From Burkholderiales bacterium (GTDB taxonomy: Bacteria > Pseudomonadota > Gammaproteobacteria > Burkholderiales > Burkholderiaceae_F): a DNA stretch of 38,062 nucleotides. Numbering within the stretch: position 1 is the stretch's first letter; every line of letters begins with the position of its first letter. The stretch covers positions 138,382 through 176,443 of the forward strand of contig OMSW01000112.1 of assembly GCA_900290295.1 (NCBI GenBank), given 5' to 3'. The position numbers were made by a program, and so were the translations under genes. Below, one piece after another: positions 4,750 to 33,172 of the stretch. The notes below the pieces were generated by a model. It saw nothing but the letters and a program-made list of their open reading frames with translations, was not told where the DNA came from and made no database searches.

Positions 4750-5313
4750 ATGACGATCAAGAGCGACCGTTGGATCCGGCGCATGGCCGCACAGGGGATG
4801 ATCGAACCATTCGAGCCTGGCCAGGTGCGCAGCGTCAATGGCCAGCGCATCGTCTCCTACGGTACGTCCAGTTACGGGTACGACATCCGCTGCGCGGCCG
4901 AATTCAAGATTTTCACCAACATCAACAGCACCATCGTCGATCCCAAGGCATTCGATCCGGACTCGTTTGTCGATTTTCGCGGCAATGTCTGCATCATTCC
5001 ACCCAATTCCTTCGCCTTGGCCCGCACGGTCGAATTCTTTCGCATTCCGCGCAGCGTGCTCACCATCTGCCTCGGAAAGAGCACCTATGCGCGCTGCGGC
5101 ATCATCGTCAATGTGACTCCGCTGGAACCGGAATGGGAAGGACACGTGACCCTGGAGTTTTCCAATACGACGCCGCTACCGGCCAAGATCTACGCCAATG
5201 AGGGTTGTGCACAGGTGATCTTTATCGAATCCGACGAGGTTTGCGAGACCTCGTATCGCGATCGCGGTGGCAAGTACCAGGGGCAAACCGGCGTGACCTT
5301 GCCTCGCACCTGA
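4750..5313 (+). CDS. dcd: dCTP deaminase
   Basis: 187 residues, normal for bacterial Dcd. It deaminates dCTP to dUTP, which dUTPase turns into dUMP for thymidylate synthase (thyA lies in this window at 13711-14505). Visible family features are the nucleotide-binding GKSTYAR segment at 109-115 and [10 protein letters not shown] at 131-140, whose glutamate (E136) corresponds to the catalytic E138 of the E. coli enzyme. The C-terminal [12 protein letters not shown] tail closes over the substrate in homologues. The start at 4750 follows a strong GGGAGGAGG ribosome site. Single gene between a divergent DSD1 enzyme and the glycine riboswitch. Confidence 0.96.
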
Positions 5314-5354
5314 GGTCGAAGTACGCATTGGCGCGCCGCAAGCAGGGAATCGTG

Positions 5355-5360
5355 TATGCT
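5355..5360 (+). promoter_or_regulatory. Candidate -10 element for the riboswitch-gcvTHP transcript
   Basis: TATGCT lies about 24 bases upstream of the first glycine aptamer, which places transcription start just before the aptamer. A TTGGCG at 5328-5333 resembles a -35 box but the 21-base spacing is too long. The placement rests mainly on the position of the RNA. Confidence 0.35.
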
Positions 5361-5383
5361 CGCACCACGCTCGTGACCGCGAC

Positions 5384-5627
5384 GTGGGAGAGCGTCAGGA
5401 CGCAGGACGCGGGACGCCGCCAGGCTGCCCGCCCCCCGCGCCCCTGACCGCCGAAGGCGCAACGCCCGTAATCGCTCAGGTCAAGGAACCGCGCCGCGCG
5501 AGCGTCTCTGGAGAGACCGGACTTGGCGTCCGGCGCCGAAGGTGCAAGGGGCTGCAAGGTCTGCGCTCTCATTACGGGGGCCGATCGGGCCGCCCCGGAA
5601 CTCTCAGGCAAAAGGACAGAGGGGCGC
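5384..5627 (+). ncRNA. Tandem glycine riboswitch (two aptamers)
   Basis: Two consecutive copies of the glycine-aptamer signature. Aptamer 1 (about 5384-5497) has GTGGGAGAGC, CCGCCGAAGGCGCAA and AATCGCTCAGGTCAAGGA. Aptamer 2 (about 5503-5627) has TCTCTGGAGAGACCGG, CGCCGAAGGTGCAA and AACTCTCAGGCAAAAGGACAG. A short linker joins them, as in known tandem glycine riboswitches. It lies 43 bases upstream of gcvT, so it controls gcvT-gcvH-gcvP; in characterised cases glycine binding switches the cleavage operon on. I see no clear intrinsic terminator between aptamer 2 and the gcvT start, so control may act on translation initiation or through a less obvious structure. Confidence 0.95.
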
Positions 5628-5670
5628 GCATCGAAGCCTCGATGTGCCGCCTTTGCTCCGGAACCGCTCG

Positions 5671-6792
5671 ATGCTCAAGCGCACCCCACTGTTCGAAATG
5701 CACCGTGCTGCTGGCGCGAAGATGGTCGATTTCGGCGGCTGGGATATGCCGCTGCACTACGGATCGCAAATTGCCGAACACAATGCGGTGCGCGCCCACA
5801 GCGGTATGTTCGACGTTTCGCACATGCGGGCCATCGATCTGACAGGTTCCGGCAGCCTCGAATTTCTCCGCCTGCTTCTTGCCAACGATTCGGGCGGGCT
5901 GGAGCCGGGTAAGGCTTTGTACAGTTGCATGCTCCAGGCCGACGGCGGGGTGAGCGACGACCTAATCGTTTATCGCGAGGTCGACGCCACCGTGCCCTTT
6001 CGCTTGGTGGTCAACGCGGCGACGGCCGAACGCGATCTTGCCTGGATGCACCGGGTACGGACCGAGCGCAGCTTCGCGGTTGAGCTGCGTGCGCGCACCG
6101 ATCTCGCCCTGATTGCCGTACAGGGTCCGGCAGCGCGCGCACAGCTGGCGCGAGCGGTTCCGCGTCTGGGCCCAACCGTTGCCCAGTTGCCTGTGTTTAG
6201 CGCGGCCACCGTCGGGGATTGGTTCGTCTCGCGTACCGGCTATACCGGCGAGGACGGTTGCGAGATCGCCCTGCCGGCCGCGCAGGCGGCCGAGTTCTGG
6301 CGCGCCCTGACCGTTGCCGGCGTTGCGCCCTGCGGGCTCGGGGCGCGCGACACGCTGCGACTCGAAGCGGGCATGAACCTGTACGGCAGCGACATGGACG
6401 AGACGGTCTCGCCGCTGGAGTCGGGCTTGGCTTGGACGGTGGATTTGCGCGCGCCGCGCGAATTCATCGGCCGCACGGCGCTCGAGCGCCAGCGTGCCGA
6501 CCCGGGTTTGCGCCAATTGCTGGGCCTGATGCTCCTGGACCGGGGCGTATTGCGCTCGCACCAAGGTGTCGCCACCCGGCACGGCCCGGGCGAGATCACT
6601 AGCGGCACGTTCGCGCCGACCGTGGGCTGTTCGATCGCCTTGGCACGAGTGCCTGCGGGCGTGGTCCCGGGCGAGGAGGTTACTGTCGACCTGCGCGCGG
6701 GTCCTGCGGCCGCCATCGTGTGCCGCCCACCGTTCGTACGCAATGGCAAGGTGCTGACAGCGAAACAGCAGATGATAGGGAGCGAAAAATGA
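5671..6792 (+). CDS. gcvT: Glycine cleavage system T protein (aminomethyltransferase)
   Basis: 373 residues. Transfers the methylene group from aminomethyl-lipoyl GcvH to tetrahydrofolate, releasing ammonia. N-terminal LKRTPLFEMH and FGGWDMPLHY are classic T-protein motifs; GGVSDDLIVY at residues 92-101 carries the conserved aspartate that activates folate. The C-terminal barrel includes GRTALERQR and ITSGTFAPTVG. The reading frame is open further upstream into the riboswitch, but ATG 5671 is the start that gives the family N-terminus and clears the RNA. The stop overlaps the gcvH start (ATGA at 6789-6792), so T and H are coupled. Confidence 0.96.
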   Translation: MLKRTPLFEMHRAAGAKMVDFGGWDMPLHYGSQIAEHNAVRAHSGMFDVSHMRAIDLTGSGSLEFLRLLLANDSGGLEPGKALYSCMLQADGGVSDDLIVYREVDATVPFRLVVNAATAERDLAWMHRVRTERSFAVELRARTDLALIAVQGPAARAQLARAVPRLGPTVAQLPVFSAATVGDWFVSRTGYTGEDGCEIALPAAQAAEFWRALTVAGVAPCGLGARDTLRLEAGMNLYGSDMDETVSPLESGLAWTVDLRAPREFIGRTALERQRADPGLRQLLGLMLLDRGVLRSHQGVATRHGPGEITSGTFAPTVGCSIALARVPAGVVPGEEVTVDLRAGPAAAIVCRPPFVRNGKVLTAKQQMIGSEK

Positions 6793-7171
6793 GCATTCCG
6801 GCGGACCTGCGCTACACCGAATCGCACGAGTGGGTGCGCACCGAGCCGGACGGCAGCGTACTGGTCGGCATTACCGACTTTGCCCAGGACGCCCTCGGCG
6901 ACTTGGTCTATATCGAGCTTCCCACCGTTGGCAAGACCGTCACCGCCGGACAAGTGGTCGCGGTGGTGGAATCGGTCAAAGCCGCCTCGGACATATACGC
7001 CCCGGTTGCGGGAAGCGTGGCCGCGATCAACGAGGCATTGAAGGATGCTCCGGAAGAACTCAACCGTGACGCCTTTGGCGCGTGGCTCTTTCGGATGCGA
7101 CCGGAGAACGTGGCAGACGTCGGCCGACTGCTCGATGCCAAGGCCTACCAGGCGCAGATCGATTCGGAGAA

Positions 7172-7175
<4 letters not shown>
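6789..7175 (+). CDS. gcvH: Glycine cleavage system H protein (lipoyl carrier)
   Basis: 128 residues, standard length. Carries the aminomethyl intermediate on a lipoyl-lysine among the P, T and L proteins. The lipoylation site is K64 in [20 protein letters not shown] 6789 overlaps the gcvT TGA by four bases; the stop in turn overlaps the gcvP start. No lipoamide dehydrogenase (L protein) is in the cluster, as is common, because it is shared with other complexes. Confidence 0.97.
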
Positions 7176-10054
<2,879 letters not shown>

Positions 10055-14936: not shown

Positions 14937-15404
14937 ATGTCCACTGCACTTGCCGATACCGCCACTCAACCCGTCCTGGACCGTGTACGACAGGAAGCCA
15001 AATCCGCCGGCCTGCCGTTTGCCGGTAGCGTGCCGCCGCGGGAGGCCTGGGCGCTGCTGCAATCGGGCGGCGCGGTGCTGGTCGACGTGCGCTCGGCCGA
15101 GGAGCGCAAATTTGTCGGCCATGCGCCGGGCAGTCTTCATGTGGCATGGGCCACGGGCACCAGCCTGACGCGCAATCCGCGTTTCGTGCGCGAGCTCGAA
15201 GCCAAGGTGCGCAAGGACGAGGTCGTGCTGCTGCTGTGCCGCAGTGGCAAACGCTCTGCGCTGGCTGCCGAGGCCGCCACCAAGGCCGGATTCACGAGCG
15301 TGTTCAACGTTCTCGAGGGTTTTGAGGGAGAGCTCAACGAAGCCCAGCACCGCGGCACGGCCGACGGCTGGCGCTTCCGGGGCCTGCCGTGGGTGCAAGA
15401 TTGA
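14937..15404 (+). CDS. Rhodanese-like sulfurtransferase
   Basis: 155 residues, single rhodanese domain. The active-site loop CRSGKRS begins with C101, the cysteine that forms the persulfide; the upstream strand VLVDVRSAEERKFVGHAPGS is the typical rhodanese entry motif. It would accept sulfane sulfur and pass it to cyanide, thiols or a protein acceptor. AGGA at 14927-14930 lies six bases before ATG 14937. It is the first gene of an operon with a serine acetyltransferase, a regulator, an encapsulin shell and a cysteine desulfurase; rhodaneses and serine acetyltransferases are known companions of Family 2A encapsulins. Likely role: moving sulfur into or out of the compartment (inference). No signal peptide, so cytoplasmic. 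Confidence 0.92.
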   Translation: MSTALADTATQPVLDRVRQEAKSAGLPFAGSVPPREAWALLQSGGAVLVDVRSAEERKFVGHAPGSLHVAWATGTSLTRNPRFVRELEAKVRKDEVVLLLCRSGKRSALAAEAATKAGFTSVFNVLEGFEGELNEAQHRGTADGWRFRGLPWVQD

Positions 15405-15430
15405 GATTGGCGGCCCCCGGTGGTGCTTTC

Positions 15431-16426
15431 GTGACGGCTGCCTCGCAAATCCCCTCCGAGCAGAACAACGGCAACGGCAACGGCAACGGTCAAACCTTGG
15501 CCGATCACGTTTCGCTTGACCTGGCCAACATTGTTGCGCAACTGCGCGGCGTGCGGCAACTGTGGCGCGACGCACAGCAGCGACCACGCGACATCCGCGG
15601 GAGGGAGCTACCGTCACGCGAATCCTTGTCCGCGATCGTCGACGGTTTGCGTGGGGCCCTGTTCCCGATGCGGCTCGGCCCGCCCGACCTGCGTCAGGAG
15701 AGTGAGGACTACTACGTCGGCTACACGCTCGACATCGCGTTGAACCGCCTGCTTTGCGCGGTGTCGCTGGAACTGCGCTATCACGTGCGCCACGGCAGCC
15801 AGGCGCTGAGCGACGCCGATGCGCGCGCACTCGAGATCGTGCGCGATTTTGGCGCCACGTTGCCGCAAATCCGCTCGCTGCTCGACAGCGATGTGCTGGC
15901 CGCCTACCAGGGGGACCCGGCGGCGCACAGCGTCGACGAGGTGCTGCTTTCCTACCCGGGCATCCACGCGATGATCAATCATCGCATCGCCCACCGCCTG
16001 TACTTGCTGGGTGTGCCGCTGCTGGCGCGGCTCGTTGCCGAGATCGCACACGGCGAAACCGGAATCGATATTCATCCCGGCGCCAAGATCGGTCCGGGGT
16101 TCTTCATCGATCACGGCACCGGCGTCGTGATCGGCGAGACCGCGGAAATCGGCCGCAACGTGCGCCTGTACCAGGCGGTGACGCTGGGCGCCAAGCGCTT
16201 TGCAACGGACGGGCATGGCAATTTGAAAAAGGGCGAGCCAAGGCATCCCATCATCGAGGACGATGTCGTCATCTACGCTGGCGCCACCATTTTGGGCCGC
16301 ATCACCATCGGGCGTGGCGCGGCGATCGGCGGCAACGTTTGGCTAACGCGTAGCGTGGCCCCGGGAAGCCGGATCACGCAGGCGAGCACCCGTGATGAAA
16401 CGGTCGTCGACGGCGCGGGCATCTAG
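15431..16426 (+). CDS. epsC: Serine O-acetyltransferase (EpsC/CysE-type)
   Basis: About 331 residues. The N-terminal helical domain (residues ~25-200) is followed by a left-handed beta-helix of hexapeptide repeats: DIHPGAKIGPGFFIDHGTG, VVIGETAEIGRNVRLYQAVT, PIIEDDVVIYAGATILGRIT. The Asp-His pair in DIHPGA/FIDHGTG is the catalytic element. It makes O-acetylserine from serine and acetyl-CoA, the carbon skeleton for cysteine. GTG 15431 is chosen as start; earlier in-frame GTG/TTG codons overlap the rhodanese. The N-terminus holds an unusual NGNGNGNG run encoded by a six-base repeat. Its place before the desulfurase shell suggests dedicated cysteine supply, the desulfurase substrate. Confidence 0.93.
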   Translation: MTAASQIPSEQNNGNGNGNGQTLADHVSLDLANIVAQLRGVRQLWRDAQQRPRDIRGRELPSRESLSAIVDGLRGALFPMRLGPPDLRQESEDYYVGYTLDIALNRLLCAVSLELRYHVRHGSQALSDADARALEIVRDFGATLPQIRSLLDSDVLAAYQGDPAAHSVDEVLLSYPGIHAMINHRIAHRLYLLGVPLLARLVAEIAHGETGIDIHPGAKIGPGFFIDHGTGVVIGETAEIGRNVRLYQAVTLGAKRFATDGHGNLKKGEPRHPIIEDDVVIYAGATILGRITIGRGAAIGGNVWLTRSVAPGSRITQASTRDETVVDGAGI

Positions 16427-16427
16427 T

Positions 16428-16655
16428 GTGGTCAAGCTCAGTCAACGCTTCGGCGGCGTGGTCCGACAGCTGCGCGAGGCTCGCGGCTGGTCACAGGAGC
16501 GCCTGGCGGGCCGCGCGGAGCTGAACCGCTCTTACATGGGTGAGATCGAGCGGGCCACGGCGATGCCCTCCCTGGCCACGGCGGCCAAACTGGCGCAGGC
16601 ACTGGAGGGAGCCGGCGCCGCCGTGCTTTTCCCGGTATGGCCCTGCTGGTTATAG
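16428..16655 (+). CDS. Small XRE-family helix-turn-helix regulator
   Basis: 75 residues from GTG 16428, which directly follows the epsC TAG; an ATG at 16395 inside epsC would add 11 residues. The protein is little more than a Cro/C1-type HTH: VVRQLREARGWSQERLAGRA forms the first helices and ELNRSYMGEIERATAMPSL the recognition part (about residues 20-50). No effector domain; the C-terminus ends in a hydrophobic VLFPVWPCWL tail. Its position between epsC and the shell gene suggests it controls this operon, with a 93-bp AT-richer gap after it. Target and direction of control are unknown. Confidence 0.85.
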   Translation: MVKLSQRFGGVVRQLREARGWSQERLAGRAELNRSYMGEIERATAMPSLATAAKLAQALEGAGAAVLFPVWPCWL

Positions 16656-16748: not shown

Positions 16749-17678
16749 ATGGCAGATAAAAAGCCCGTGCAACTGGCACTGGGCGATAACGCCGCCCGCC
16801 AACTAGCCAACACCACCAAGACTGCACCGACGCTGTCGACCATCAGCCCGCGTTGGCTCACTCACCTGTTGCAATGGGTGCCGGTCGAGGCCGGCATCTA
16901 TCGGTTGAACAAGGTCAAGAATCCGCTGGATGTGCAGGTGCTGTGTGCCAAGCGCGACGAAGCGGACCTGCCGACCACTTTCGCCGACTACGAGGATCAG
17001 CCGCGCGAGTACTTCCTGAATTCGGTCAGCACGGTGCTCGACGTTCACACCCGCGTGTCGGACCTGTACAGCAGTCCGCACGACCAGATCAAGGAACAGC
17101 TCCGACTGACGATCGAGACGATCAAGGAGAAGCAGGAGAGCGAGCTAATCAACAATCCGGAATACGGGATGCTCGCCAATGTCGCGCCCGATCAGATCAT
17201 CTACCCGTTGGCCGGTGCGCCGACGCCGGACGACCTCGATGAACTGCTGACCAAGGTGTGGAAGGAGCCGGCGTTTTTCCTCACGCATCCGAGTGCGATT
17301 GCTGCGTTCGGCCGCGAATGCACGCGCCGTGGCGTGCCGCCGCCGACCGTGAGCCTGTTCGGCTCGCAGTTCCTGACTTGGCGCGGCATTCCGCTGGTCC
17401 CGTCGGACAAGGTGGCGGTGGCCGACGGCAAGACCAAGATCTTGCTGCTGCGTGTGGGCGAGCGGCGCCAGGGCGTGGTTGGCTTGTTTCAGCCCGGACT
17501 GCCAGGCGAGCAAAGCCCGGGGCTCTCGGTACGCTTCATGGGTATCAGCCGCAATGCGATTGCCTCGTACCTGATTTCGCTGTACTGCTCGCTCGCAGTG
17601 CACACCGATGACGCGCTTGCCGTGCTGGAGGATGTGGAAATCGGCAAGTACCACGAGTATGGCCATACCTACAAGTGA
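16749..17678 (+). CDS. srpI: Family 2A encapsulin shell protein (SrpI-type)
   Basis: 309 residues, the length of Family 2A shells. Highly recognisable as SrpI: RQLANTTKT near the N-terminus, WLTHLLQWVPVEAGIYR, DYEDQPREYFLNSVSTVLDV, HTRVSDLYSSPHDQIKEQLR, LINNPEYGMLANVAP, GAPTPDDLDELLTKVWKEP and PGLSVRFMGISRNAIASYL. The HK97-like fold is complete and there is no cyclic-nucleotide-binding insertion, which separates 2A from 2B. Family 2A subunits self-assemble into an icosahedral shell around a cysteine desulfurase, and such shells have been shown to hold elemental sulfur. AGGAG lies six bases before ATG 16749. The cargo gene follows after 10 bases. The shell is cytoplasmic. Confidence 0.95.
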   Translation: MADKKPVQLALGDNAARQLANTTKTAPTLSTISPRWLTHLLQWVPVEAGIYRLNKVKNPLDVQVLCAKRDEADLPTTFADYEDQPREYFLNSVSTVLDVHTRVSDLYSSPHDQIKEQLRLTIETIKEKQESELINNPEYGMLANVAPDQIIYPLAGAPTPDDLDELLTKVWKEPAFFLTHPSAIAAFGRECTRRGVPPPTVSLFGSQFLTWRGIPLVPSDKVAVADGKTKILLLRVGERRQGVVGLFQPGLPGEQSPGLSVRFMGISRNAIASYLISLYCSLAVHTDDALAVLEDVEIGKYHEYGHTYK

Positions 17679-17688
17679 ACCCAGCGCT

Positions 17689-19896
17689 ATGGCGACTCCC
17701 GAGGCAGTGAGCCCGGGGCCGCCTGCGGGCCTGCCGGATCCGGCAAGCTTGGCGCGGCTGGCAAACGAGTTTTTTGCCGCGCTGTCGGGCGCCCCGGCTG
17801 CTGGCGCAGTTCCGGCGCCGACGAATCCGCAGCCGGCCGGGTTCTCCTTGCCGCCCGGCGCTGCTGGTCCGTCCGCGCAGGCGGCCGGTGCAGCACCGGT
17901 GCCGACGAATCCACAGCCGGCGGGGTTTTTCTTGCCGCCCAGCGTTGCTGGGCCGTCCACGCCGGCGGCCGGTGCAGCACCGGTGCCGACGAATCTACAG
18001 CCGGCGGGGTTTTTCTTGCCGCCCAGCGTTGCTGGGCCGTCCACGCCGGCCGCCGCTGGAGTGCCGGTGCCGATGAATCCGCAGCCGGCCGGGTTCTCTT
18101 TGCCGCCCGGCGCTGCGGGCCCGTCCACGCCCGCTGCCGTGCCGTTCGGCGCCCTGGCGCCGGGCGCGAACCTGCTGCCGAGTTCGCCGCAAGCGCCGGC
18201 CAATGCGGGCGCCTCGGCGCCTTCCTTGGTGCCGCACGCGCAGGCACCCAACGGCGTGCCTGACCATGCCATGAGCGCAGCGCCCGGATATGACGGGCGG
18301 GCCGGCAACTACGCTCTTGGCGTGCCGCAGGCCTACGCAGCTGCACTGCCACTGGCGACGATTTCAATGCCCGGTGGCGGCGCAACGGCGCCGTCCGAAC
18401 CGACGGCATACTATTTCCTTGGTGCCACCGGCGCCCCGGTGTCGGGCATACCGAGTGCCGGTGAATCTGCCCTGCCTAGCGACGATCTCGTCAGCGCACA
18501 ATCCTTCGGTCTACCCGGCAGCGAAGCTCTGCGCTCGCTGCTTGCTGATAGCGTGAAGGCGCCTTCGGCGCCCGCCCTGCCGGTAGCCGGCCCCGGCCGC
18601 TACTACTTCATCGATGCCGAGCAAGCCAGCGCCACGCCGAATGGTGCGATTCCCCAGGCCTCGGCATCTGCACACCCGCCGTTCGATGTCAACGCGCTCC
18701 GCCGCGACTTCCCGATCCTGCAGGAGCGGGTCAACGGCCGGCAGCTGGTGTGGTTTGACAATGCCGCAACGACGCAAAAGCCGCAGGCGGTGATTGATCG
18801 GCTCGCGCACTTCTACGCGCACGAAAACTCCAACATCCATCGTGCCGCGCATGAACTCGCGGCGCGCGCGACCGATGCCTACGAACAGGCGCGCGAGACC
18901 GTGCGCCGCTTCATCGGCGCAAGCTCGAGCGAGGAGATTGTCTTCGTGCGCGGCACCACGGAGGGCATCAATCTGGTGGCCAAGAGCTGGGGGGCCAAGC
19001 ATGTCGGGCCGGGCGACGAGATCATCGTCTCGCACCTCGAGCACCACGCCAATATCGTGCCGTGGCAGCAGCTCGCTGCCGAGAAGGGTGCGAAGATCCG
19101 CGTCATTCCGGTCGATGACTCCGGTCAGGTGCTGCTCGAGGAATACCAGCGCCTGCTGAATGATCGCACCAAGATCGTCTCGGTCACGCAAGTCTCGAAC
19201 GCCCTGGGCACCGTGGTGCCGGTGAAAAAGATCGTTGAGCTGGCCCACCGGGCAGGCGCGCGCGCGCTGATCGACGGCGCGCAGTCGGTGTCGCACATGC
19301 GCGTGGATATGCGCGCGCTCGATGCGGACTTCTTCGTCTTTTCGGGGCACAAGATCTACGGACCTACCGGCATCGGCGCGGTCTACGGCAAGCGCGAGGT
19401 ACTCGAAGACATGCCGCCGTGGCAAGGTGGCGGCAACATGATCCTCGATGTGACCTTCGAGCGTACGGTGTACGACGAGCCACCGACGCGCTTCGAGGCC
19501 GGCACCGGCAACATCGCCGACGCGGTCGGCCTTGGGACTGCGCTCGATTATGTGGAGCGGGTGGGTGTCGAGAACATCGCGCGCTACGAGCACACGCTGC
19601 TCGAGTACGCCACGCACCACATGAACCTGATTGATGGTGTGCACCTGATCGGCACCGCAATCGACAAGGCCAGCGTCCTTTCCTTCGTGGTCGACGGCAC
19701 CAGTACCGAAGAGGTGGGCAAGGCGCTGAACCAGGAGGGCATCGCGGTGCGAGCCGGACATCACTGCGCGCAGCCCATCCTGCGCCGTTTCGGGCTCGAA
19801 TCCACGGTGCGCTCGTCGTTGGCGTTCTACAACACCAGTGAGGAAGTGGACCGCATGGTGGCGGTTGTGCGTCGACTCGCGGGCATGCGGCGCTAG
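17689..19896 (+). CDS. cyd: Encapsulated cysteine desulfurase with long disordered cargo-loading N-terminus
   Basis: 735 residues. Residues ~332-735 are a type II (SufS-like) PLP cysteine desulfurase: DFPILQERVNGRQLVWFDNAATTQKP entry region, SGHKIYGPTG with the PLP lysine K555, and RAGHHCAQP with the persulfide cysteine C693. Residues 1-331 are Ala/Pro/Gly-rich and predicted disordered; Family 2A cargo enzymes carry such extensions to enter the shell. The extension starts with an amphipathic LARLANEFFAAL (21-32), contains four near-identical ~28-residue repeats (39-149), and has two YYF elements, YYFLGATG (241-248) and YYFIDAEQ (305-312). It releases sulfane sulfur from cysteine. ATG 17689 is chosen; ATG 17659 would overlap the shell gene by 20 bases. 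Confidence 0.95.
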   Translation: MATPEAVSPGPPAGLPDPASLARLANEFFAALSGAPAAGAVPAPTNPQPAGFSLPPGAAGPSAQAAGAAPVPTNPQPAGFFLPPSVAGPSTPAAGAAPVPTNLQPAGFFLPPSVAGPSTPAAAGVPVPMNPQPAGFSLPPGAAGPSTPAAVPFGALAPGANLLPSSPQAPANAGASAPSLVPHAQAPNGVPDHAMSAAPGYDGRAGNYALGVPQAYAAALPLATISMPGGGATAPSEPTAYYFLGATGAPVSGIPSAGESALPSDDLVSAQSFGLPGSEALRSLLADSVKAPSAPALPVAGPGRYYFIDAEQASATPNGAIPQASASAHPPFDVNALRRDFPILQERVNGRQLVWFDNAATTQKPQAVIDRLAHFYAHENSNIHRAAHELAARATDAYEQARETVRRFIGASSSEEIVFVRGTTEGINLVAKSWGAKHVGPGDEIIVSHLEHHANIVPWQQLAAEKGAKIRVIPVDDSGQVLLEEYQRLLNDRTKIVSVTQVSNALGTVVPVKKIVELAHRAGARALIDGAQSVSHMRVDMRALDADFFVFSGHKIYGPTGIGAVYGKREVLEDMPPWQGGGNMILDVTFERTVYDEPPTRFEAGTGNIADAVGLGTALDYVERVGVENIARYEHTLLEYATHHMNLIDGVHLIGTAIDKASVLSFVVDGTSTEEVGKALNQEGIAVRAGHHCAQPILRRFGLESTVRSSLAFYNTSEEVDRMVAVVRRLAGMRR
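17803..18138 (+). repeat. Four in-frame 84-bp tandem repeats in the desulfurase cargo domain
   Basis: Units start at 17803, 17887, 17971 and about 18058. Each encodes the pattern (A)PxPTNPQPAGF(S/F)LPP followed by xxAGPSxxAA. Units 2 and 3 are almost identical at the DNA level, pointing to recent duplication; units 1 and 4 have the FSLPPGAAG variant and units 2 and 3 FFLPPSVAG. A three-base insertion precedes unit 4 (27 residues). Confidence 0.93.
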
Positions 19897-32708: not shown

Positions 32709-32995
32709 CGCGCATGCCGCGCGTCCACTTCACCCCGCACCAATTCACCTCACGTCCGATCGCTTGGCTGCTATACCTGCACCAACTTCCGGATTTCCCG
32801 ATTGTCTGTCTCGCACCTCCAACCGCATTCGGTTATTTGATCGCCGCCACCGGCCAAGCCGGTAATCTCAGCAGCGGCTTTGTGCACACGTGCGACAACC
32901 TCGGGAATCAAACTTCCGTCGCTGGCTCGGTATGGAACAACCAGCGGTGTTCCATGACCCGTTACTGAAACCCCAGACGTGCTGATGGATGCGGT

Positions 32996-33172
32996 CCGCA
33001 CCGGCTGTGGGCCGAGGATCCGCTGCACAGTTCCGGTGCCCATGCCCAGTTCTGGCGCGATCGACATGCCCTGGCCGGTGGCCCTGGCGGCATGTACCGC
33101 CTGTCGACGTCCGTGGAAACTCGCGGCCGTCCTAGCTGCTTTCATTGCGCCCTGAAAACCCGCGTCATGCAG
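32996..33172 (-). pseudogene. Remnant of a serine recombinase/resolvase C-terminal HTH
   Basis: The minus-strand frame reads GFQGAMKAARTAASFHGRR and then GQGMSIAPELGMGTGTVQRIL. This matches the end of the catalytic linker helix and the C-terminal HTH of the resolvase/invertase family (typical ending: I-A-R-E-L-G-x-G-T-G-T-V-Q-R-I). The catalytic domain with the serine is absent, and beyond the HTH the frame continues into unrelated sequence. A decayed fragment next to a tRNA gene. Confidence 0.6.

Follow-up and report, generated by a model that had tools for sequence, protein, structure and literature searches.

A 38,062-nucleotide stretch of contig OMSW01000112.1 from a Burkholderiales bacterium (hereafter, the window) was analyzed, and a tandem array of four 84-bp units was found in the gene of CyD, the cargo cysteine desulfurase of a family 2A encapsulin. 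We favor, with modest confidence, the view that the array arose by lineage-specific tandem expansion of a conserved Pro/Gly-rich element of 28 residues in the disordered N-terminal extension of the enzyme, in which units 1–3 would serve mainly as a flexible spacer and unit 4 would be the sole consensus core that was kept.

The tandem array and its element in relatives

The array was detected at 17794–18139 using Tandem Repeats Finder (TRF; period 84, 4.1 copies, 86% matches, 0% indels, score 461), and positions 17803–18138 comprise exactly 4 × 84 bp in the desulfurase frame. Four in-frame units, two of them nearly identical, had been described there in an earlier note made from the sequence alone, and this description was borne out: 2 of the 84 bases distinguish units 2 and 3 (97.6% identity), the remaining pairs are 80–85% identical, and the flanking 84-mers show 31–39% identity to the units. 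The units, all on the forward strand, read GAVPAPTNPQPAGFSLPPGAAGPSAQAA (unit 1, 17803–17886, with T25A and P26Q), GAAPVPTNPQPAGFFLPPSVAGPSTPAA (unit 2, 17887–17970, with S15F and G19S), GAAPVPTNLQPAGFFLPPSVAGPSTPAA (unit 3, 17971–18054, with P9L, S15F, and G19S), and AGVPVPMNPQPAGFSLPPGAAGPSTPAA (unit 4, 18055–18138), the last of which is nearest to the consensus of relatives and is joined to the conserved downstream linker. The core NPQPAGF(S/F)LPP, which the note had placed in each unit, is exact in three of the four; unit 3 reads NLQPAGFFLPP.

The array ranked first in the 176,443-base contig (TRF score 461 versus 260 at the next distinct place, with 14 TRF rows in total) and also among 96 desulfurase N-terminal regions, drawn from 102 loci, where the next score was 166. 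At the protein level, the self-match score was 374, compared with at most 76 across 20 shuffles. With the array, 84 residues are added after the LARLANEFF anchor and before the remainder of the extension, which carries the YYF motifs and is followed by the enzyme. The window sequence contains no N. The second strongest array of the contig (locus L144, 12851–13015; positions 32851–33015 of the contig) consists of AAGAAG-type repeats, perhaps encoding a tail rich in Lys and Ala in a histone-like or AlgP-like protein.

Relatives were collected using a shell alignment, which retrieved at least 80 named loci, the nearest of which include Burkholderiales metagenome-assembled genomes (MAGs), Albitalea, Rubrivivax, and Derxia; a CyD N-terminal region was present in 80 of the 85 loci examined, the window being one of the 85. 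A profile of the core and linker, built without the window, matched 30 of the 95 other CyDs and none of 950 shuffles. This first run used regions cut at a guessed anchor, by which 15 of 96 were shortened by more than 45 residues, Synechococcus elongatus included. On open regions of up to 450 residues, the same profile again matched 30 of 95 and none of 960 shuffles, and the TRF ranking was unchanged. Nine of the 30 core-bearing loci had been chosen for their matching unit, and among the shell-search entries the count was 20 of 75. The core occurs once in 29 of the 30 and twice, not in tandem, in a sister species; tandem expansion of the unit was seen only in the window among the sampled CyDs. 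The unit is not confined to this gene: relatives carry it as a conserved element, mostly in single copy, and the idea that it is unique was rejected. The opposite idea, that it is universal in the family, was also rejected, as the profile finds it in only those 30 N-terminal regions. No core was detected by the profile in 65 of the 95 other cargo desulfurases, and because the full core was thus not detected in the S. elongatus CyD and 64 others, it does not look like a family-wide requirement.

On the 85-row shell tree, core presence required six changes, compared with a mean of 19.7 in shuffles, so the core is clustered on that tree; the starred branches force only one of the changes. A diverged form of the core, GGLNVPANPLP(A/P)G(V/L), was observed in L068, L072, and L073 (Roseateles and Pelomonas), which suggests an element family wider than the 22 close units compared below. 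The S. elongatus CyD has a 13-residue core-like fragment, LPVPSQPTPAGLQ (9.4 bits, domain independent E-value 0.007, whole-sequence E-value approximately 100), which is too weak to count, although it hints that part of the core may be more widely spread.

Whole genomes were also searched with a 28-residue profile. In the window genome, four copies were found, all in the array (E up to 0.001). Two others of 399 genomes of the order had one match each, one of them (L112) outside the desulfurase frame, and one match each was found in 4 of 74 genomes of another family and in 17 of 399 genomes of the Albitalea family, 14 of the latter in desulfurases. Among the 10 genomes behind named loci, nine had one unit and the sister species (G516, identical to G004) had two. 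Some genomes recur between these searches; in the 399-genome sets, the best 20 or fewer candidates per genome were scored, by which a weak extra copy could escape, and the fetched loci were rescanned. In the genus of the window, the shell occurs in three of seven genomes, and both of the others, including G006, carry one unit at the N-terminal position. The comparison of repeat number across relatives that the earlier note had proposed gave a difference between species, four versus one, with a conserved core and a lineage-specific expansion.

Origin and divergence of the units

The synonymous distances (dS) between units were 0.04 for units 2 and 3, 0.29 for units 1 and 2, 0.32 for units 1 and 4, and 0.50 for units 2 and 4, and those between the array units and the units of G004 and G006 were 0.81–1.47. 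Between the window and G004, dS reached 1.01 in the N-terminal region minus the array, compared with 0.68 in the shell and 0.51 in the catalytic domain. Units 1–3 share A2 and T7, and units 2 and 3 share F15, S19, and V20, which suggests the order ((U2,U3),U1),U4. Unit 4 joins the conserved downstream linker and is the copy at the ancestral position. The array arose after the window had split from the nearest sampled relatives; the simplest account is three in-frame duplications on the window's own branch, and we regard this historical part of the favored view as close to certain. The two older steps could be a single event, because the distances between units 1 and 2 and between units 1 and 4 are alike. 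The note had called the expansion recent, which holds for units 2 and 3 and less so for the older steps (dS 0.29–0.50); only the last duplication is very recent, and the older ones could seem younger than they are through gene conversion.

The nearest sampled relative on the shell tree is the sister species, a peat-soil MAG named SbB1 (G004, L028, G516). The pair has 96% support in the Shimodaira–Hasegawa-like approximate likelihood ratio test in the 29-row tree and forms no starred set in the 85-row tree, and its shells are 92% identical. The sister CyD (L028, 6112–8355) has one intact unit at the N-terminal position and a degenerate second copy 130 residues downstream. Its 95-residue insertion repeats the degenerate core unit together with a third YYFL, and the pieces are 71–78% identical in DNA to their source. 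Among the 96 N-terminal regions, this is the sole one with three YYF-like motifs.

The units were compared with 22 distinct units of relatives, of which 14 came from a pattern search and eight from profile searches; the pattern fixed P18 and P23 and limited positions 10, 11, 13, 16, 17, 19, 22, and 24. The set leaves out the window units, the sister's second copy, the indel variants L049 and L132, the diverged forms L041, L042, L045, L068, L072, and L073, the non-desulfurase matches L112, L133, L134, and L135, and the opposite-strand open reading frames (ORFs) in L069 and L084. Eight positions are invariant in these units, which applies to the closer form only (the diverged forms lack PPG), and the key residues of the unit are taken from conservation only. 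Unit 4 outscored 16 of the 22 and has one residue unseen in relatives. Units 1, 2, and 3 outscored four, three, and none, with three, four, and five unseen residues, respectively, and the sister's second copy outscored none and has five. In units 2 and 3, the invariant G19 was lost and the small residue at position 15 was replaced by F, which is unseen in relatives; in unit 1, T25 and P26 were lost, which are present in 21 and 20 of the 22, respectively.

The ratio of nonsynonymous to synonymous change (dN/dS) between unit 4 and its counterparts in G004 and G006 was about 0.13 and 0.27. Between species, it was 0.21–0.29 for the rest of the N-terminal region and 0.09–0.11 for the catalytic domain. 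In these small numbers, there was no sign of stronger constraint on the array than on its surroundings.

Spacer, docking sites, or drift

In the favored view, loading would depend on the LARLANEFF anchor and further conserved motifs, and the core would be represented by a single consensus copy, unit 4. Units 1–3 would chiefly extend a flexible tether, as a tolerated or mildly useful spacer that makes weak shell contacts at most. We infer that CyD is placed inside a shell, with the extra units as spacer and a small effect on loading. Several observations weigh against this view. Units 1 (74.0) and 2 (70.3) score inside the leave-one-out range of relatives (65.1–97.8), only unit 3 (64.3) being below it, and single relatives carry up to four unseen residues, compared with three, four, and five in units 1–3. 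Moreover, seven or eight of the eight invariant positions are retained in units 1–3, and dN/dS between units (0.25–0.44 in five pairs) is below one, from which some constraint may remain on units 1–3; the uncorrected Fisher p values were 0.015 (units 2 and 4), 0.035 (units 3 and 4), and 0.10, 0.13, and 0.19 (other three pairs). S15F gives units 2 and 3 an extra aromatic residue, which may be a gained sticker. The extensions of the window and its sister were lengthened independently to a similar size, 312 and 325 residues from the anchor versus a median of 198.5 (n = 76; the anchor was not found in 4 of 80 rows, L035 among them, which were excluded), and such parallel lengthening could reflect selection for length. 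Finally, the literature yielded no loading data for this clade.

If every unit were a shell-binding sticker, four copies would raise avidity or packing, as the repeats of CsoS2 do; we consider this multivalent docking unlikely. CsoS2 of alpha-carboxysomes, a disordered protein whose repeated motifs link cargo and shell, serves as an analogy only (PMC11365436, in part), and the number of its M-repeats is described in passages of PMC11481516 as setting carboxysome shell size. Docking is also favored by the conservation of the unit in the clade (30 of 95 others, none in either set of shuffles), by the core-like fragment of S. elongatus, by the aromatic gain in units 2 and 3, by the scores of units 1 and 2 within the range of relatives, and by the location of the unit early in the extension, a part that according to passages of PMC8049743 is sufficient for some loading in S. 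elongatus. However, the four equivalent shell-contacting cores that the earlier note supposed were not supported: only unit 4 fully fits the motif, units 1–3 and the sister's second copy deviate at conserved positions, one copy is enough for 29 of the 30 other core-bearing desulfurases, and none was found by the profile in 65 of 95. The family 2A passages describe no shell contact by this motif, and the Protein Data Bank gave no match to the N-terminal region. CsoS2 is a separate scaffold with a tested repeat number, whereas the repeats of the window are on the enzyme itself, in one lineage of the sample, and partly degenerate: the array is not conserved across the family (one copy in 29 of 30 others, two in the sister), and the key residues are not kept in every repeat (G19 lost in units 2 and 3, T25 and P26 in unit 1). 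The sequence evidence leans against four equal docking sites, which is a lean rather than a proof, as relatives also have scores as low as those of units 1 and 2. A bolder version, which we consider quite improbable, would have the 28-residue element act in Burkholderiales family 2A cargo as a third loading motif not yet described. Its multiplication in this lineage would have made a sticker array, the S15F change of the youngest copies would mimic YYF, and the number of repeats would tune how many enzymes the T=1 shell holds, or how tightly.

Pure mutational drift, that is, tandem duplication in a GC-rich disordered linker with no functional effect, is in our judgment rather improbable. Disordered regions tolerate length change, and length change has happened independently in the disordered region of CyD: unrelated short arrays occur there in L035 (Derxia gummosa; 24 bp × 3.8, encoding LPGAAGAS) and L040 (36 bp × 2.6), and the sister carries its different 95-residue duplication. 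Against drift stand the dN/dS below one and the seven or eight invariant positions kept, an array of this strength in only 1 of 96 N-terminal regions, and the sparse occurrence of arrays across the 176-kb contig (14 TRF rows). An assembly artefact, in which the true copy number differs, was a worry of the earlier note and is a small one; we regard it as very improbable. The assembly is a draft of 316 contigs with 88% completeness, in which an exact extra copy would collapse unseen, so that four units would be a minimum in that case. However, the longest exact repeat is 54 bp and the next 32 bp, below the usual read length, and each unit has its own differences; ordinary reads can therefore order the units, and an assembly error is unlikely. 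As a separate observation, the N-terminal regions of L035 and L138 are also long (308 residues each); that of L138, a CyD encoded at 5035–7239 on a plasmid of Methylosinus trichosporium OB3b, is very long and has neither the core nor a TRF array.

The cargo desulfurase, its operon, and known family 2A systems

CyD (17689–19896, forward strand, 735 aa) was assigned with the cargo model NF041166 (924.3 bits, cut-off 800) and PF00266 (3e-148), which agrees with the earlier placing of the array in the region of a family 2A desulfurase that is presumed to load cargo. The listed ORF opens at 17608 and overlaps the shell gene; therefore, the start at 17689, an ATG approximately 10 nt past the shell stop, was inferred by homology to unit-bearing relatives. 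With this start, 332 residues precede the catalytic domain, close to the 331 claimed before. The first published motif (LARLANEFFS in passages of PMC8049743) is present as LARLANEFFA at 17749–17778, in a predicted helix of residues 18–32, and the second (AASPYYFLDG) as TAYYFLG, with its YYFL core at 18409–18420; both fit the consensus of 80 N-terminal regions. A second aromatic copy in that consensus, YYFI, lies at 18601–18612. The SufS-like catalytic domain spans 18685–19893 (TIGR01979, 562 bits, cut-off 475.1) and has the conserved catalytic residues K555 and C693, which are invariant in 32 of 32 CyD rows.

An AlphaFold2 model with 32 CyD sequences had modest confidence (predicted template modeling score 0.54; mean predicted local distance difference test score, pLDDT, 60.9). 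Every ten-residue block from 31 to 330 had a mean pLDDT below 50, which is only a proxy for disorder. The repeats (residues 41–150) had values of approximately 35–42 with no secondary structure, in line with the disordered appearance claimed for the extension. Just two helices precede the catalytic domain, 18–32 with the LARLANEFF motif and 278–288. A Protein Data Bank search with the N-terminal region gave 0 matches up to E 1. The layout shared in the 80-row consensus runs GLPDxAxLARLANEFFAALPG, Pro/Gly-rich core, PGxNLxP...NGVPD, GVPEA, SPYYFLG, FGLPGxDxLRxLL, FYFLD, PPF, and catalytic domain; the 84-bp unit corresponds to the Pro/Gly-rich core region, and two of the motifs have already been published (PMC8049743, in part).

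As judged from its genes, the window carries a family 2A encapsulin operon of rhodanese, EpsC-like protein, small ORF, SrpI-like shell, and cargo CyD, all on the forward strand. The rhodanese-domain protein lies at 14937–15404 (PF00581, 4e-15; its position matches that in an annotated operon of family 2A). It is followed by a serine O-acetyltransferase of EpsC/CysE type at 15389–16426, with an uncertain start codon (NF041874, 163 bits, cut-off 150; PF00132; TIGR01172 gave 170 bits, short of the 210.65 cut-off). The ORF of 87 aa at 16392–16655, also with an uncertain start, is probably a helix-turn-helix regulator, a label taken from the place of the annotated regulator in Variovorax (L137) alone, on whose plasmid the same order of rhodanese, epsC, helix-turn-helix gene, shell, and cargo is annotated. 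The adjacent shell protein (SrpI-like, 16749–17678, 309 aa) was assigned to family 2A (PF19307, 5.8e-102; NF041162, 532.5 bits, cut-off 380); the family 2B model NF041163 was passed narrowly (417.6 bits, cut-off 400), chiefly over profile positions 211–449. In the alignment, F263 and Y274 are the retained counterparts, offset by one, of SrpI F262 and Y273, which were proposed to lie close to cargo density at the threefold axis (passages of PMC8049743). G006 has two family 2A shells (L003/L009 and L006/L062), 90% and 83% identical to that of the window, and its second locus (L062) shows no unit copy by profile, the cargo gene being cut by the contig end. Azotobacter vinelandii CA has two family 2A loci (L081 and L082), each with a cargo CyD.

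The CyD of S. elongatus PCC 7942 (plasmid pANL; L136, 5156–7036) resembles that of the window in its upstream shell gene, long disordered N-terminal region, SufS-like domain, YYF-type motif (FYFID), and nearby EpsC and rhodanese. In contrast, it has only the 13-residue core fragment, no tandem DNA array by TRF, and an extension of 225 residues (PMC8049743, in part) versus 332. Its motif-1-like stretch occurs twice, ERSLEQLTQTVLQDLQ and ERSLAQLAQAVLQDPQ, as an internal repeat of the anchor element. Passages of PMC8049743 state that this N-terminal domain loads into the shell, the 225 residues best, the first 100 less well, and a YYFLDG-only fragment not at all. SbB1 is closer to the window, with the same shell–cargo pair and an intact N-terminal unit, but it has one intact unit and a different insertion instead of the array.

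In passages of the family 2A literature (PMC8049743, PMC8346489, and PMC12407261), no repeat array or 28-residue core is mentioned in cargo desulfurases, and no repeats in such an enzyme appeared in the titles and abstract beginnings among the matches listed, a coverage outside which preprints and most subscription papers fall. According to the same passages, the targeting peptide of these enzymes had not been identified in 2021 (PMC8346489), and cargo density in the family 2A shell was too weak for a model to be built (PMC8049743). The way in which family 2A cargo is loaded by a long disordered extension was thus open in these papers (PMC8049743 and PMC8346489). This locus offers a conserved element that those passages do not name, together with related species that naturally carry one or four copies, by which a docking or a spacing role of the element becomes testable.

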